Assembly: GCF_003287285.1 (NCBI RefSeq)
Contig: NZ_QMIG01000047.1
Span: 1 to 34,027 of the forward strand
Source: Phytoactinopolyspora halophila
GTDB lineage: Bacteria; Actinomycetota; Actinomycetes; Jiangellales; Jiangellaceae
Length of the DNA: 34,027 nt
Direction of reading: 5' to 3'
Below the pieces are notes generated by a model. That model worked only from the letters and a program-made list of their open reading frames with translations. It had not been told where the DNA came from and ran no database searches. A program made the position numbers and the translations under genes. This document shows positions 4,981 to 33,286 of this stretch, piece after piece (within the stretch, counting starts at the first letter, position 1; every line of letters starts with the position of its first letter).

Positions 4981-5079
4981 TCACCCCCGCCCTCACACTC
5001 CGATGATCATCGGCGATTTCATGGCCACATGGGTCAACAGATGTTCATGATCATCGGAGTGTGGGGCGCGGGTGAGGGT
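4981..5079. repeat. ATGATCAT-centred inverted-repeat element between uvrC and rapZ
   Basis: Perfect 17-bp arms lie at 4994-5010 and 5047-5063, around a 36-nt centre. Pairing continues imperfectly outwards for about 12 more bases (GAGGGCGGGGGTG against GGGCGCGGGTG). The left arm also contains a perfect 14-bp palindrome, CCGATGATCATCGG (5000-5013). The structure starts about 20 nt after the uvrC stop and could serve as its terminator. A related arm recurs at 24809-24839. Confidence 0.85.
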
Positions 5080-13578: not shown

Positions 13579-14624
13579 CCACTAAGAAGTCGCCATCGGC
13601 AGATGCGCGCCCCACACTGGATGAGGTAGCCGAGTACGCCGGGGTTGGCCGCGGGACCGTCTCACGGGTGATCAACGGATCTTCGCAGGTCAGCCCGAAG
13701 GCACGGGAAGCCGTCGAACGAGCCGTCGCCGAGCTCGGATACGTTCCCAACCTGGCCGCCCGGTCACTCGTGACCCGGCGTACCAACGCGGTGGCACTCG
13801 TCGTGTCCGAAAGCCAGGAACGGGTCTTCGGTGAACCGTTCTTCGCGGGCATCGTGCGGGGCATCAGCTCCGGTTTGATCGACACTCAGATACAGCTATG
13901 GCTGGCGATGGCCCAGTCACGCGCCGAACGCCAGCGGGTAGAAAGTCATCTGACCACGCAGCACGTCGACGGAGTTATGTTGCTCTCGCTGCACGACGAT
14001 GATCCATTGCCCGCCCTGGTCGAGCGGCGTGGCCTGCCGCTCGTGCTGGGTGGCCGGCCGGCCCGCCTGACCAGGCCCGGCGCCTCGGTCGAGTGGTTCG
14101 TTGACGTGGACAACATCGGCGGCGCACGACGTGCCGTCGAGCATCTGTACCGCTCCGGGAGGCAAGTTATCGCCACGATCACCGGGCCCCAGGACATGGG
14201 TGGTGGCCTGGAGCGACTCTCCGGATACCAGCAGGCGTGCGAAGAGCACGATCTGTCCTGTGACGCCGACCTGATCGCCTACGGCGACTTCAGCTACGAC
14301 AGTGGCATGGCCGCCATGCGGCAACTACTGGAGCGCCGTCCCGACATCGACGGTGTGTTCGCCGCTGCGGATCTCATGGCGGCGGGCGCCTTACGCGTCC
14401 TGCGTGAGCACGGACGACGGGTTCCCGAGGACGTCGCTGTGGTCGGCTTCGATGACTCGAGTCTGGCCCGCCAGACGGATCCGAGCCTGACCACCGTGCG
14501 CCAGCCGATCGATGAGATGGGCCGCGCCATGGCGCGGCTCCTCGTAACCCGCATTTCGGACGAGGAGCCGGCGCAGCCACACGCGGTTCTCGATACCGAC
14601 CTGGTCATCCGCGAATCCGCCTGA
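13575..14624 (+). CDS. cebR: LacI-family repressor of the cello-oligosaccharide operon
   Basis: 349 residues from the GTG at 13575, which overlaps the bglC stop (GTGA). The N-terminal LacI helix-turn-helix is clear: PTLDEVAEYAGVGRGTVSRVINGSS followed by the hinge-helix region NLAARSLVTRRTNAVALVV. Residues 65-345 form the periplasmic-binding-protein-like sensor domain (FFAGIVRGISSGL, DGVFAAADLMAAGALRVLREHG, VVGFDDSSLARQTDPSLTTVRQP). CebR homologues release their TGGGAGCGCTCCCA operators when cellobiose or related sugars bind. Being the last gene of the operon it should autoregulate through the two operators before cebE. In Streptomyces cebR is usually next to cebE; here it is at the distal end. 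Confidence 0.9.
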   Translation: MTTKKSPSADARPTLDEVAEYAGVGRGTVSRVINGSSQVSPKAREAVERAVAELGYVPNLAARSLVTRRTNAVALVVSESQERVFGEPFFAGIVRGISSGLIDTQIQLWLAMAQSRAERQRVESHLTTQHVDGVMLLSLHDDDPLPALVERRGLPLVLGGRPARLTRPGASVEWFVDVDNIGGARRAVEHLYRSGRQVIATITGPQDMGGGLERLSGYQQACEEHDLSCDADLIAYGDFSYDSGMAAMRQLLERRPDIDGVFAAADLMAAGALRVLREHGRRVPEDVAVVGFDDSSLARQTDPSLTTVRQPIDEMGRAMARLLVTRISDEEPAQPHAVLDTDLVIRESA

Positions 14625-14698
14625 GCCGGCCTCCACCTCCGTCCTTGCCCGAAGGTCCGTTCCCCGTCCACAGCCGGTAGGCCCGCTCCGTCTACGCC

Positions 14699-14845
14699 GG
14701 AGACCTACTCCCCGTTCTCACCCCCGGAGACCCGCTCCCCATCCATACCGGTCGGCTCCACTCCCTCCACGTACCTGCGAGACCCGCTCGCCTCCACGTA
14801 CCCCCGAGACCCGCTCCCCGTCCCCGGAAGACCCGCTCTCCTTCC
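14699..14845. repeat. Degenerate GAGACCCGCTCCCC repeats
   Basis: GAGACC(C/T)(G/A)CTC(C/G)CC-type units recur five times with irregular spacing (starts near 14699, 14728, 14779, 14805 and 14827), separated by CCACGTACC-like links. A similar GCGGCTCCCC style of repeat precedes element copy C at 32911-33060. Confidence 0.6.
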
Positions 14846-14878
14846 TACGCCGAAGACGCGCTGCGTGCTCGGTCAAAC

Positions 14879-15020
14879 CCGTGGGCTTGCGACGCCGAGC
14901 ACCCGCGCCATGCACGCCGAGCACCCGCGCCGTGCACGGCGAGCCCACATGCCATGCACGCTCAATCCACCCCGGAAAGCGCTTACCACGATCGCCGCAC
15001 GTGGTTTCAGCGTGCACGGC
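14879..15020 (+). repeat. Composite TGCACG/AAGCGCTT element, copy A
   Basis: Order: CGTGGGCTTGCGACGCCGAG, then three roughly 21-bp units each centred on CC(A/G)TGCACG(C/G)C, then GGAAAGCGCTTACC (palindromic AAGCGCTT at 14977-14984), 22 nt, then TCAGCGTGCACGGC (15007-15020). On the minus strand GCCGTGCACGCT (15009-15020) can pair with AGCGTGCATGGC (14952-14963) through 12 positions including one G-U, enclosing an ACCACG/CGTGGT stem. Confidence 0.82.
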
Positions 15021-15298
15021 CCATCAGCAAAGACCTCAGAGCCACTCCAGGGGTGTCTTCGTTGATCGAACCCGCCCGGTTAACCGCGAGCCCATCCGAC
15101 CGTCCGCGAGTCCGTCCGGTCGTCCGCAAGGTCGGCGGAGACCGGAGCCTGCTGTGAGCGGGAAAGGGCACGCATCGGACGGCCACCCCGAACCGGACTT
15201 TCGCACCACGGCTCGGTCACCCGGAACCGGGATTTCACGGTATGGGCGTGCGACCTGGTGAATTGTCCACTAACGGCTGGGGCTTCCTTCGTTGCGGA

Positions 15299-15318
15299 GA
15301 TCAGAGCTTGCTCTGATC
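15299..15318. repeat. 9-bp perfect hairpin, TT loop
   Basis: GATCAGAGC, loop TT, GCTCTGATC. Its core ATCAGAGCTTGCTCTGAT is repeated exactly as the apex of the longer hairpin that starts 6 nt downstream. Confidence 0.85.
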
Positions 15319-15324
15319 AGCTGA

Positions 15325-15372
15325 GGGGACGGTCTCTTCATCAGAGCTTGCTCTGATGAAGAGACCGTCCCC
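15325..15372. repeat. 23-bp perfect hairpin, TT loop (REP-like palindrome)
   Basis: The left arm is at 15325-15347 and the right arm at 15350-15372; all 23 pairs match. The ends read GGGGACGGTCTC / GAGACCGTCCCC and the apex is ATCAGAGC-TT-GCTCTGAT. It is far from any gene end (700 nt after cebR, 900 nt after uvrA), so it is unlikely to be an ordinary terminator. Confidence 0.9.
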
Positions 15373-15410
15373 CGCAGCCCACTGGCCGGACATAGTGAGT
15401 CCCAGTCAGC

Positions 15411-15576
15411 CCGTTGGGCTTGCGACGCCGAGCGCCCGCACCATACATGCCGAGCACCCGTGCCGTGCACGCTGAGCCCTACGTGCCGTGCACGGCGAGC
15501 CCACATGCCATGCACGCTCAATCCACCCCGGAAGGCGCTTACCACCATCGCTGCACGTGGTTTCAGCGTGCACGGC
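15411..15576 (+). repeat. Composite TGCACG/AAGCGCTT element, copy B
   Basis: Near-identical to copy A in order and orientation, starting at CCGTTGGGCTTGCGACGCCGAG and ending TCAGCGTGCACGGC. It has one more TGCACG unit than copy A. Its palindrome is weakened to GGAAGGCGCTTACC. The last 70 bases match copy A almost base for base. Confidence 0.85.
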
Positions 15577-15599
15577 AGTCCAAAAGGGTGCGCGCCACA

Positions 15600-15910
15600 A
15601 CGTTTACGTGCCAGCCAACGGCGCACGCCACAACGGCCAGGCACGAAACCGCGAGCACACGAGAGTCAGACGGCAACGGCGCACGCCACAACGGCCAGGC
15701 GCCAAATCGCTTGCGCACAACAGTCAGACGCTTACCGCACGCACACGTGGGCCAACGGCAACGGCACGCGCACGAGAGTCAAATCGCAACGGCGTGCGCC
15801 CAACAGCCAGACGGGTTCCGTGCGCACGACGGTCAGACGCTTACCGCGCGCACGACGGCCAGGCGCCAACCACGCGCACGATGGACCGCGCGCACAAGAA
15901 CGGTCCGGTC
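15600..15910. repeat. Block of degenerate direct repeats
   Basis: A 26-bp sequence AACGGCGCACGCCACAACGG-CCAGGC occurs exactly at 15617-15642 and 15675-15700. AC(A/G)GTCAGACGCTTACCGC recurs at 15720-15738 and 15828-15846. Many GCGCACGA(C/G) blocks lie between. CGCTTACC links these to the palindromes of copies A and B, so the block may be decayed element copies. Confidence 0.7.
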
Positions 15911-16272: not shown

Positions 16273-19137
16273 TCAGGGCGCAAGTAGCGGTTGGAGAAAG
16301 CGCCCCGTATGCGAGTCCTCCATCTGCGTAACCTGTTCAGGAGTTCCGGTCGCCACCACGGTGCCGCCGCCGGTGCCACCTTCTGGTCCCATGTCGATGA
16401 TCCAGTCAGCGGTCTTGATGACATCGAGGTTGTGCTCGATGATCACCAGGGTGTTGCCCTTGTCGACCAGGCCCTGCAGCACACCGATAAGCCTGCGGAT
16501 GTCTTCGAAGTGCAGGCCCGTGGTGGGCTCGTCAAGAACGTAGAACGTACGCCCGGTCGATCGCTTCTGTAGCTCGGAGGCGAGCTTGACTCGCTGGGCC
16601 TCTCCCCCGGACAGCGTGGGTGCTGGCTGGCCCAGCCGGACATAGCCGAGCCCGACATCGACCAGCGTCCGCAGGTGCCGCGAGATCCGCTGGATGGGTT
16701 CGAAGAACTCGACCGCTTCTTCAATCGGCATCTCCAGCACCTCGGAGATGGTCTTGCCCTTGTAACGCACCTCGAGGGTCTCGCGGTTGTAGCGGGCACC
16801 GTGGCAGACCTCGCACGGCACGAAGACGTCCGGAAGGAAATTCATCTCGATCTTGATGGTTCCGTCACCGCTGCACGCCTCGCAGCGGCCACCCTTGACG
16901 TTGAACGAGAACCGCCCTGGCTGGTAGCCGCGTACCTTGGCTTCCTGCGTGTCGGCGAAGAGCTTGCGGATGTGATCGAAGACACCCGTGTACGTCGCGG
17001 GATTGCTGCGTGGCGTACGCCCGATGGGCGACTGATCGACATGAACGACCTTGTCGATCAGGCCCAGCCCGTCGATCCGACGGTGCCGGCCCGGAACGGC
17101 CTTCGATCCGTAGATCTCCTTGGACATGGCGGTGTAGAGGATGTCGTTCACCAGCGTCGACTTTCCCGACCCGCTCACACCCGTGACAGCGATGAAGCAC
17201 CCGAGCGGAAAGGAAACGTTGATGTTCTGCAGATTGTGCTCCCGCGCACCGACCACCGTGATCGAGCGGTCATCTCGCGCCGGCCGCCGCACGGGCGGAA
17301 CCTCGATCTCCCGCCGACGGGATAGGTAGTCACCCGTGATGGAGCTCTCGTGTTCCTCCAACTGGTCGACGGGGCCGCTGTGCACGATCTGCCCGCCGTG
17401 CTCCCCGGCGCCGGGGCCGATGTCGACCACCCAATCTGCAGTACGGATCGTGTCTTCGTCGTGCTCCACCACGATCAGCGTGTTGCCAAGATTCCGCAGC
17501 CGGACCAGCGTCTCGAGTAGCCGGTGGTTATCCCGTTGATGCAGCCCGATCGACGGCTCGTCGAGTACGTACAGTACGCCGACCAGGCCGGAACCAATCT
17601 GCGTCGCCAGACGAATGCGCTGCGCCTCGCCACCGGCCAAGGTGCCAGCCGCACGATCCAGGCTGAGGTAGTGCAATCCCACGTCCAACAGGAACTGCAA
17701 CCGCTCATTGACTTCCTTGAGCACCCGGGCGGCGATCTGCCGTTCCCGCTCGGTCAGTTCGAGCTCCCGCAGGAATCTTGCGCACTCCCCGATCGGCATG
17801 GCCGCCAGCTCGGCGATGCTCAGGCCACCTAGCGTCACCGCCAAGACCACCGGCTTGAGCCGGGCACCCTTGCACGCCGGACACGGAACTTCACGCATGA
17901 AGCCTTCGAATCGTTCCCGGCTGGAATCCGACTCGGCGTCGGCATAGCGACGCTGGACCCACGGGATCACGCCTTCGAAGTAGGTGTAGTACGAACGAAC
18001 CCGGCCATAGCGATTCTGGTAACGCACGTGGATCTGCTCGTCGTAGCCGCGCAACACGGCGTCGCGCGCCTTCTTCGGCAGTGTCTCGAACGGGACATCC
18101 GTGCGGAACCCGATGCTCTCGGACAATGCCGTGACCAGACGCCCGAAATACTCCGCCGAGTGGGCTGGAGCCCATGGCGCCAGGGCGCCATCATCCAGCG
18201 TGCGGGACGGATCGGGAACGACCAGTTCCTCGTCCACCTCCATCCGAGTTCCGATACCGGTGCATTCCGGGCACGCGCCGAACGGTGAGTTGAACGAGAA
18301 CGAGCGGGGCTCCAGCTCTTCGAACGACAGGTCATCATATGGGCAGTACAGATGCTCGGAATAGACCTTCTCGCGCTGCGGGTCGTCTTCGGGAAGGTCG
18401 ACGAAATCGAGCGTGACCAGACCACCCGAAAGCCCGAGAGCCGTCTCGATCGAGTCGGTCAACCGGCGCACCGCAGACGGCTTGACCGTCAACCGGTCGA
18501 CCACCACCTCGATCGTGTGTTTTTCCTGTTTCTTGAGCTTCGGCACGTCGGTGAGCTGGTAGACGGTGCCGTCGACGCGGGCGCGCGCGTAGCCCTGCGA
18601 CTGCAACGTGCGAAAGAGATCGACGTATTCTCCCTTGCGCTCCCGCACCACCGGCGCCAGAACCTGAAACCTCGTTCCTTCCTCGAGCTCGTGCACCCGA
18701 TCGACGATGGACTGTGGTGTTTGCCGCCCGATGGGACGGCGGCATTCCGGGCAGTGCGGCCGACCCGCCCGCGAGTACAGCAACCGGAGGTAATCGTGGA
18801 CCTCCGTGATGGTCCCCACCGTAGATCGCGGGTTACGCGACGTGGATTTCTGGTCGATCGACACGGCCGGCGAGAGACCCTCGATGAAGTCGACATCCGG
18901 CTTGTCCATCTGACCGAGGAACTGACGTGCGTAGGCGGACAACGACTCCACGTATCGGCGCTGCCCCTCGGCGAAGATCGTGTCGAAGGCCAGGCTGGAT
19001 TTACCCGAACCAGACAGCCCGGTGAAGACGATCAGCGAGTCTCGTGGCAGGTCCAGCGAGACATCCTTGAGGTTATGTTCGCGTGCTCCTCGCACGACGA
19101 GGCGATCACCCGAGTATGTGGTACTCCGTTCGGTCAT
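16273..19137 (-). CDS. uvrA: Excinuclease ABC subunit A
   Basis: UvrA is the dimeric damage sensor that loads UvrB. The protein has two ABC ATPase modules. In the first, [34 protein letters not shown] is interrupted by the UvrB-binding region and a zinc module (CPEC near its start, CPAC at the insertion domain), and closes with [17 protein letters not shown]. In the second, [16 protein letters not shown], the zinc finger CEACSGDG...CEVC and [15 protein letters not shown] are present. I start at the ATG at 19137 (954 residues), because family members begin a few residues before [15 protein letters not shown] and a GGAG lies upstream. An in-frame ATG at 19197 would add 20 residues with no family counterpart known to me and would bring the start close to the divergent gene. 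Confidence 0.96.
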
Positions 19138-19225
19138 CTGCAGCCCGGTTCTCCGATCCAGCCAGTATGGATATTCGCGTGTATCAGGCGTACTCATCGC
19201 ATCGTAAACGCCGGCACCGACAAAG

Positions 19226-33124: not shown

Positions 33125-33286
33125 GCCCGCAATGCACGCCGGGCCCTCGCGCCGTGCACGCCGATGCGCCACACCGTGCACGCTGGTTCCACCCGCCATG
33201 CACGCTGGCTCCACCCGCCGTGCACGTTGGCTCCTCGTCCATAGACCCGTGTAAGCGCTTTCCAGCGTGGACTCAGCGTGCACGGC
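33125..33286 (+). repeat. Composite TGCACG/AAGCGCTT element, copy C
   Basis: Same order and orientation as copies A and B but diverged: an array of about five units centred on (A/C)(C/A)(C/A)(G/A)TGCACG(C/T), then GTAAGCGCTTTCC (palindrome AAGCGCTT at 33253-33260), then TCAGCGTGCACGGC (33273-33286). The palindrome-to-end gap is 12 nt here and 22 nt in copy A. Units such as CCACCCGCCATGCACGCTGG recur at roughly 22-bp spacing. Confidence 0.75.

Follow-up and report, generated by a model that had tools for sequence, protein, structure and literature searches.

Palindromic elements in a convergent gap

The window is the whole 34,027-nucleotide stretch of DNA that was analysed. It contains two related copies of a repeat element, A (14885-15020) and B (15418-15576), with 96% identity over the last 95 nt, as had been proposed in an earlier reading made without database searches. 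Both lie in a convergent gap, between a gene ending at 14624 on the plus strand, which we take to be of LacI type, and a gene at 16273-19197 on the minus strand that is presumably uvrA.

The sequence-only reading had described a fixed architecture, comprising a head, an array of TGCACG units, a LacI-operator-like palindrome and an end that can fold back on the array. The head, the array and the TCAGCGTGCACGGC end are found in both A and B, but the unit itself is a 70-bp imperfect palindrome, with 23-bp inverted arms on either side of a 24-bp centre, and with 22-bp arm units repeated one-sidedly. In this 70-bp dyad 17 of the 23 positions of the left arm are complementary to the end. Both the head and the TGCACG units exist, as additional 22-bp repeats of the left arm that keep its register with the core. 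The operator-like palindrome is exact in A, as AAGCGCTT, whereas B has AGGCGCTT. Within the window AAGCGCTT occurs four times against 0.33 expected, and two of the four occurrences lie inside the elements. It had also been stated that no open frame crosses the copies; several mechanical open reading frames do so, although a codon-usage gene caller predicts no gene there.

A third copy (33129-33286) lies inside the window in the orientation opposite to A and B. The parts of all three are listed in Table 1, together with the palindromes around the partner gene described below. Taken alone, one 70-bp dyad pairing at 17 of 23 positions is not significant in the window, since 37 of 200 dinucleotide shuffles peak at 17 and eight at 18. 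Repetition of the element, unlike the single dyad, is far beyond chance. The exact head sequence was found in A and B only among 273 loci examined, and therefore looks like a local duplication and no feature of the family.

Other repeats occupy the same gap. Between A and B (15295-15375) ATCAGAGCTTGCTCTGAT is present twice, at 15300-15317 and 15340-15357, the second forming the tip of a perfect 23-bp stem (15325-15372) that is perhaps a terminator for the convergent gap. Its 16-nt core was found only at 15295-15375 among the 273 loci. Degenerate direct repeats fill much of the remaining gap (14640-14860 and 15580-15900), some of about 22-27 bp resembling GAGACCCGCTCCCC and others of about 58 bp resembling CAACGGCGCACGCC. 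Elsewhere in the window (4994-5063) there is a separate 70-bp dyad with 18 of 23 arm pairs, beginning CACACTCCGATGATCATCGG, which is outside this palindrome family.

Table 1. Coordinates of the element copies in the window and of the palindromes on either side of the partner gene
Feature	Sequence	Coordinates	Strand	Parts	Evidence
Copy A, three extra left-arm units of 22 bp	window	14885-14950	+	14885-14906 (degenerate, the head of the earlier reading), 14907-14928, 14929-14950	sequence listing, repeat analysis
Copy A, 70-bp palindromic core	window	14951-15020	+	arms 14951-14973 and 14998-15020; centre 14974-14997 with GGAAAGCGCTTACC	alignment; E 8.4e-14 in own-genome model search (training copy)
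Copy B, four extra left-arm units of 22-23 bp	window	15418-15506	+	15418-15439 (head), 15440-15461, 15462-15484, 15485-15506	sequence listing, repeat analysis
Copy B, 70-bp palindromic core	window	15507-15576	+		alignment; E 1.4e-13 in model search (training copy)
Third copy, four extra 22-bp arm units beside core	window	33129-33216	-		sequence listing
Third copy, 70-bp palindromic core	window	33217-33286	-		blastn with copy A, E 7.8e-6; model search, E 1.2e-13 (training copy)
Palindromes around partner gene	G000 (C49)	142670 and 144096		gene 142943-143923, beyond the window	
Palindromes around partner gene	G004	110899 and 112009			
Palindromes around partner gene	G007	289528 and 290665			
Palindromes around partner gene	G010	278044 and 279504			
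Palindromes around partner gene	G012	228920 and 230086			

A dispersed family with covarying arms

A blastn search with copy A alone gave matches on other contigs, the best with E 7.1e-13. Eighteen copies from the genome of the window (G000) align without gaps across 70 columns, and from these G000 copies only we built a model, R1. Searching the 5.04-Mb genome with R1 gave at least 31 distinct sites, a lower bound obtained by scoring the best 150 of 3817 first-look candidates; 30 are exactly 70 bp in length and one is 69 bp. Eighteen are the copies on which the model was trained and 13 are independent, with a best independent E of 8.2e-15 (E-values are rough). Among 22 family genomes, R1 sites at E<=0.01 were found in G000 and in genus g5 (four of its five genomes), the 16 others having none. 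The search of the full genome and its relatives that had been suggested at the outset has yielded many further copies, and relatives in another genus. The element is not confined to the copies first noticed, nor does it lack relatives or covariation.

Seventy copies were analysed, 31 from G000, 18 from G004, nine from G007, eight from G010 and four from G012; G004, G007 and G010 hold further copies beyond these. In model coordinates 66 of the 70 are 70 bp long, three are 71 bp and one is 69 bp, and a length near 70 bp is kept in four genera despite the change in sequence. In copies of other genera the dyad persists, its core being close to GGAAA-CG or AAACCGG, and AAGCGCTT and TGCACG are mostly missing. 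The LacI-operator and TGCACG readings thus describe features of G000. A pattern match in Microbacterium (four loci) was rejected, as by eye it sits in an apparent coding stretch from which the palindrome is absent. One convergent junction (L109:2981-3081) carries a 70-bp element in G004 and none in G007, where the orthologous junction (L257) has an unrelated near-perfect palindrome of about 54 bp.

Using gene calls from our own codon-usage caller, two of the 70 copies overlap a called gene, two are at contig edges and 66 could be placed, with 22 in convergent, 35 in tandem and nine in divergent gaps. Divergent gaps are avoided, the nine seen comparing with 17.9 expected by length and 29.3 by count (background A), or 21.1 and 19.1 (background B). 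Convergent gaps are favoured, with 22 seen against 13.2 and 13.9 (A) or 6.3 and 7.3 (B). Within tandem gaps 26 of the 35 copies are closer to the upstream stop codon than to the downstream start (p = 0.006). Copies are scattered between genes and biased to the 3' ends of these. No target-site duplication was seen around the 70 copies (k 2-9, offsets 0-7, without a shuffled control), where flank identity outside the arms was 0.19-0.41 with no match run.

When the covariation check suggested in the sequence-only reading was run, the arms were found to change between species yet to stay complementary. Species-specific arms include GCCGTGCACG, GCATGGCACG, GCCTGGTGCG and GCTTGGTGCG, each paired with its complement. 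In 37 of the 70 copies, drawn from five genomes, both sides have changed at 16 of the 23 arm pairs, and 85.1% of cells are paired against 74.1% when shuffled. Double-change cells number 127, compared with 58.7 in shuffles and 6-31 in slid controls; these counts rest on five genomes only, and the cells are not independent events. At pairs 3, 4, 5, 7 and 8 one-sided changes are absent and there is a single G-U cell (pair 4). Switching of this kind would fit two equal DNA half-sites better than an RNA stem. A structured RNA as the primary nature of the element, one of the earlier suggestions, is unsupported, in that the element is near-symmetric on both strands, has the one G-U cell, and an Rfam scan of the window returned no family at its threshold. 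Folded as DNA, five single strands gave z between -1.8 and -8.4.

A predicted nuclease gene between palindromes

Copies lying 0.7-1.4 kb apart pointed to the genes between them, and in four genomes and then in G010 one such gene belonged to a single gene family. This partner gene is bracketed by a palindrome on both sides in five of the five genomes with R1 palindromes. An orthologue with 62-66% identity to the G007 protein is present in exactly these five genomes, the next match being at <=58%, and there is one close orthologue per genome (n = 5) besides distant paralogues. Each lineage keeps a gene neighbourhood of its own (three loci, one in g1/g5 and two in g2), and therefore the gene seems to have been inherited in place, vertically. 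The neighbour of the gene in g1/g5 is presumably ftsK-like, and the gene name rimO is likewise one that we assume from the sequence.

Two further genes lie between copies, one in G000 (L099:3370-3963) and one in G007, a DUF7711 gene. The first is by its look presumably a relative of dihydrofolate reductase, and the two element copies around it, at L099:3001-4383, are 1.3 kb apart. The DUF7711 gene adjoins the nuclease gene in both G004 and G007 (L118:4242-4865 and L126:3085-3693), and in G007 an additional palindrome copy is placed between it and the next gene, which we take to be ftsK-like. Near the partner gene of G000 there is a 68-bp near-perfect palindrome (L144:3440-3507), beginning TCTCTGCGCTGATCATGAACAC, that is outside this palindrome family.

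The partner protein combines a winged helix of AbiEi type with a nuclease domain at the C-terminus that is Vsr/DUF559-like. AbiEi_4 is matched in 34 of 39 members and the PADLOC AbiEi profile in 36 of 39. The nuclease motif is D-x10-ExDGxxKY, and its D, E, D and K, which from the fold we take to be the catalytic residues, are present in 69 of 73 homologues. DUF559 is matched at E<=0.01 in 10 of the 39 members, and lies below the Pfam cut-off of 20.6 bits in five scored proteins (15.9-19 bits in four of them). PDB chain 3hrl_A, 'Endonuclease-Like Protein', is matched weakly (E 0.023). An AbiEii toxin domain was found in none of ten neighbouring proteins from eight loci, one of the ten being without any Pfam match. 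The Y1 transposase family PF01797 had no match at E<=0.001 in the 22 family genomes, two of which are only 75-81% complete, while five of 14 control genomes match. The P0001 protein query matched nothing in the phage collection; no relative on a viral contig was confirmed, and the one plasmid match was weak.

We tested the prediction that orthologues in other genera, with 44-58% identity, would be accompanied by their own palindromes of about 70 bp, and this held. Such palindromes belong to the orthologues of G018, G005, G011, G009, G015, G021 and G019, and there is one in G014 beside a partial gene match. The palindrome searches scored part of their candidates, at most 40 per genome for types 1 and 2 and for the L210 type, so that the counts are minimum values and some absences are not firm. 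Counting gene-flanking, partial and both-strand matches, type 1 palindromes gave at least 46 match rows in G011, 12 in G009, 10 in G006 and nine in G018, and type 2 palindromes at least 20 in G015, 15 in G009 and two in each of G021, G019 and G017 (one site in the last). The g6-type palindrome occurs at least 19 times in G005, and in G008, which belongs to the same genus and lacks a close orthologue, a single partial match was seen (two genomes searched). G009 holds both gene types and both palindrome types.

Counted by hand with the four palindrome types taken together, dispersed copies of 60 nt or more are present in 13 of 13 gene-bearing cases and in three of 55 gene-lacking ones. The link between gene type and palindrome type has a Fisher p of 1.8e-11, uncorrected for phylogeny. 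To this count G019 and G021 each contribute one weak dispersed copy (E 8.9e-4 and 3.6e-5), and the G019 gene was matched in two pieces, without the K. Three exceptions have copies of a type whose gene they lack: G006, with nine full-length type-1 copies, and G017 and G007, with one copy each. The nine in G006 (G006:C1), where there is no close nuclease orthologue, are orphan repeats. Eight of ten gene-flanking copies best match dispersed copies of their own genome; the two flanking copies of G012 are closest to the G007 set, G012 itself offering one other 70-bp copy.

Distant homologues (26-36% identity) were scanned as a negative control, and often had flanking palindromes of other sequences; 61 unrelated genes from the same contigs therefore became the controls. 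The homologue loci examined were 70 of the 83 match rows and seven further loci, the truncated loci L165, L167, L172 and L197 being dropped. A dyad lies within 500 bp at 52 of 73 homologue loci compared with 13 of 61 control genes (p = 6.6e-9), and the median dyad length at the 52 loci is 70 bp (quartiles 61.5 and 80). A strong match between the left and right flanks was observed at 31 of the 73 loci and at none of the 61 controls (p = 1.7e-10). No dyad above threshold was found at 21 of the 73, seven of which have repeated flanks. Among the seven further loci there are paired palindromes at L249, L251 and L254.

Nature of the palindromes and their proposed partner

On balance we believe that the elements are a family of dispersed 70-bp palindromes whose partner is the chromosomal protein combining an AbiEi-type winged helix with a Vsr/DUF559-like nuclease domain. 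Two of the original suggestions agree with this. A mobile or REP-like element fits the dispersed, intergenic and 3'-biased distribution, linked to a dedicated protein that is predicted to be a DNA-binding nuclease. An array of protein-binding sites would fit the arms. AbiEi and its relative Rv2827c bind 23-bp inverted repeats with gaps of 3 or 13 bp within pairs, and Rv2827c has two pairs of such 23-bp sites (PMC7319586, in excerpt). The arms of 22-23 bp agree with AbiEi sites in size only, and the arrays repeat every 22 bp.

Each arm of 22-23 bp would be one AbiEi-type binding site. Two monomers bound to the inverted arms would place two nuclease domains over the 24-bp centre, in the geometry of a zinc-finger-nuclease pair, an arrangement that would account for both the constancy of length and the conservation of the centre. 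The DNA might be nicked or broken in the centre or in an extruded hairpin, with repair from another copy or joining into a new intergenic site. Through cutting and repair the family would slowly spread and become more uniform, with the gene remaining in place and being inherited vertically, and copies would persist mostly at 3' ends and between convergent genes. The extra arm units would be added binding sites. We have counted against the partner-nuclease explanation the other genes that lie between copies, the orphan copies in G006, G017 and G007, and the homologue loci without a dyad. Also counted against it are the lack of a target-site duplication, the few places recorded for the L210 type, the DUF559 scores under the Pfam cut-off, the G012 flanking copies that are closest to the G007 set, the weak single copies of G019 and G021, and the absences that come from capped searches.

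The protein has counterparts in two known groups. Like the AbiE type IV toxin-antitoxin systems it has an N-terminal winged helix of AbiEi type, with arms about the size of the 23-bp AbiEi sites (PMC7319586, in excerpt). Unlike them it has a C-terminal nuclease-like domain, lacks an AbiEii toxin among the ten neighbours, and has palindromes on both sides of its gene and genome-wide. The D-x10-ExDGxxKY motif and the weak 3hrl_A match resemble the Vsr/DUF559/MTES_1575 nucleases of the restriction-endonuclease fold. MTES_1575 is listed as having a Vsr-family REase domain together with wHTH domains in the excerpted text of PMC3710099, where such proteins are large multidomain conflict proteins, unlike the present gene, which is linked to repeats.

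Alternatively the palindromes could be the operators of a regulon, with the AbiEi-type protein, or a LacI-type repressor reading AAGCGCTT, as the transcription factor. AbiEi proteins do autoregulate through 23-bp inverted repeats (PMC7319586, in excerpt), the nuclease gene itself has a palindrome upstream, and AAGCGCTT is over-represented in the window, twice within elements. Operators belong at promoters, however, and just nine of 66 copies are in divergent gaps, with 22 in convergent gaps and 26 of the 35 tandem copies near the upstream stop. The nuclease motif, kept in 69 of 73 homologues, would be needless in a pure repressor, and the AAGCGCTT centre is mostly lost in other genera. We consider operators unlikely in general, and the LacI-operator reading is rejected, given that the centre is mostly absent in the sister genus and divergent gaps are avoided.

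Next in order, and also improbable, is that the palindromes are bidirectional terminators or 3'-end hairpins, spread or converged upon by their usefulness, with the nuclease gene incidental. This is consistent with the excess between convergent genes and near stop codons, with the folding of the five single strands as DNA, and with the occupation in G007 of the junction of a G004 element by an unrelated long palindrome. Yet convergence does not explain why each species has one 70-bp sequence family or why palindrome type goes with gene type, and it does not yield repeated flanks at 31 of 73 homologue loci. By eye, no U-tract follows the copies inspected.

Were the palindromes MITEs moved by an unrelated DDE or other transposase, their shortness, inverted ends, dispersal and mostly intergenic position would be expected, and genes other than the nuclease would also be found between two copies, as at L099 and L126. 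We regard this as very unlikely. Unlike for a MITE, no target-site duplication was seen (70 copies); moreover the nuclease gene is flanked in five of five genomes, and the length stays near 70 bp across four genera while the sequence changes.

The closest parallel is with REPIN/RAYT systems and REPtrons. In these, short conserved arms stand as an inverted doublet around a spacer and could form a hairpin, copies are scattered between genes with local clusters, arm changes are compensatory, the flanked partner gene is kept vertically, a genome may have several cognate sets, and repeats persist without the gene (PMC3116915, PMC8049555 and PMC3733652, in excerpt); the present system is alike in each respect. 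As for REPINs we have a dispersed intergenic inverted doublet with covarying arms, at 31 sites in G000 and with two of 70 copies overlapping a called gene, and as for RAYTs a single-copy, vertically inherited partner gene with one close orthologue per R1 genome. The systems differ in that the partner is here an AbiEi winged helix with a Vsr/DUF559-like nuclease, no Y1 transposase being found in the 22 genomes. The arms of 22-23 bp are the size of AbiEi sites, and there is no GTAG/CGTC tag, the 70 copies by eye mostly beginning with GC and ending with GC. That these are true REP/REPIN elements mobilised by a RAYT is scarcely credible despite the shared organisation of inverted doublet, hairpin, clusters and flanked gene (PMC3116915 and PMC3733652, in excerpt), as PF01797 is matched in none of the 22 family genomes against five of 14 controls and the copies do not end in GTAG or CGTC. 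TIRtrons or TIRYTs, which are RAYT-like genes flanked by long terminal inverted repeats, also have a gene between inverted repeats, and some of these repeats occur scattered through the genome as well (PMC3733652, in excerpt). They differ from the present case in the enzyme, and here a whole palindrome is placed at each end of the gene.

Returning to the partner nuclease, the system would resemble REPIN-RAYT in its working, the enzyme being unrelated; binding of the arms and cutting of the centre are what we infer. A broader proposal, which we put forward tentatively and with more doubt than belief, is that this is a new class of element in Actinomycetota, extending well beyond the family. The fusion of an AbiEi reader with a Vsr-like cutter might then be a natural paired-site nuclease that copies and homogenises its own palindromes, readers and palindromes co-evolving into many specificities with several per cell. 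If true, it would be a second, independently evolved solution to the task of REPIN-RAYT, with a large natural set of readers and targets. The papers cited tie REP-type palindromes to RAYT; here the enzyme is wholly different and RAYT was not found. If the partner reading is right, a function would be provided for proteins that match only AbiEi and DUF559 models, and one source of dispersed palindromes in Actinomycetota would be explained. The question of why bacteria retain such repeat-enzyme pairs over long periods could then be put to a second system. The pairs of reader and target, which differ from species to species and in some genomes number two, would be a resource for decoding DNA recognition by AbiEi. 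No report of a link between palindromes and an AbiEi-DUF559 nuclease was found in the literature searched, which lay outside bioRxiv preprints and, for the most part, outside subscription journals.

Across the phylum, seven of 296 genomes match P0001 at E<=1e-20. The palindrome type of L210 was found in at least 1-4 places in each of 19 genomes, mostly 1-2, in a search that missed a known flanking copy in G004; this type may sit at its gene alone, and dispersal may not be general. At loci L156-L171 and L173-L212 there are many AbiEi_4-DUF559 paralogues, several per genome, and many of these have a palindrome type of their own.
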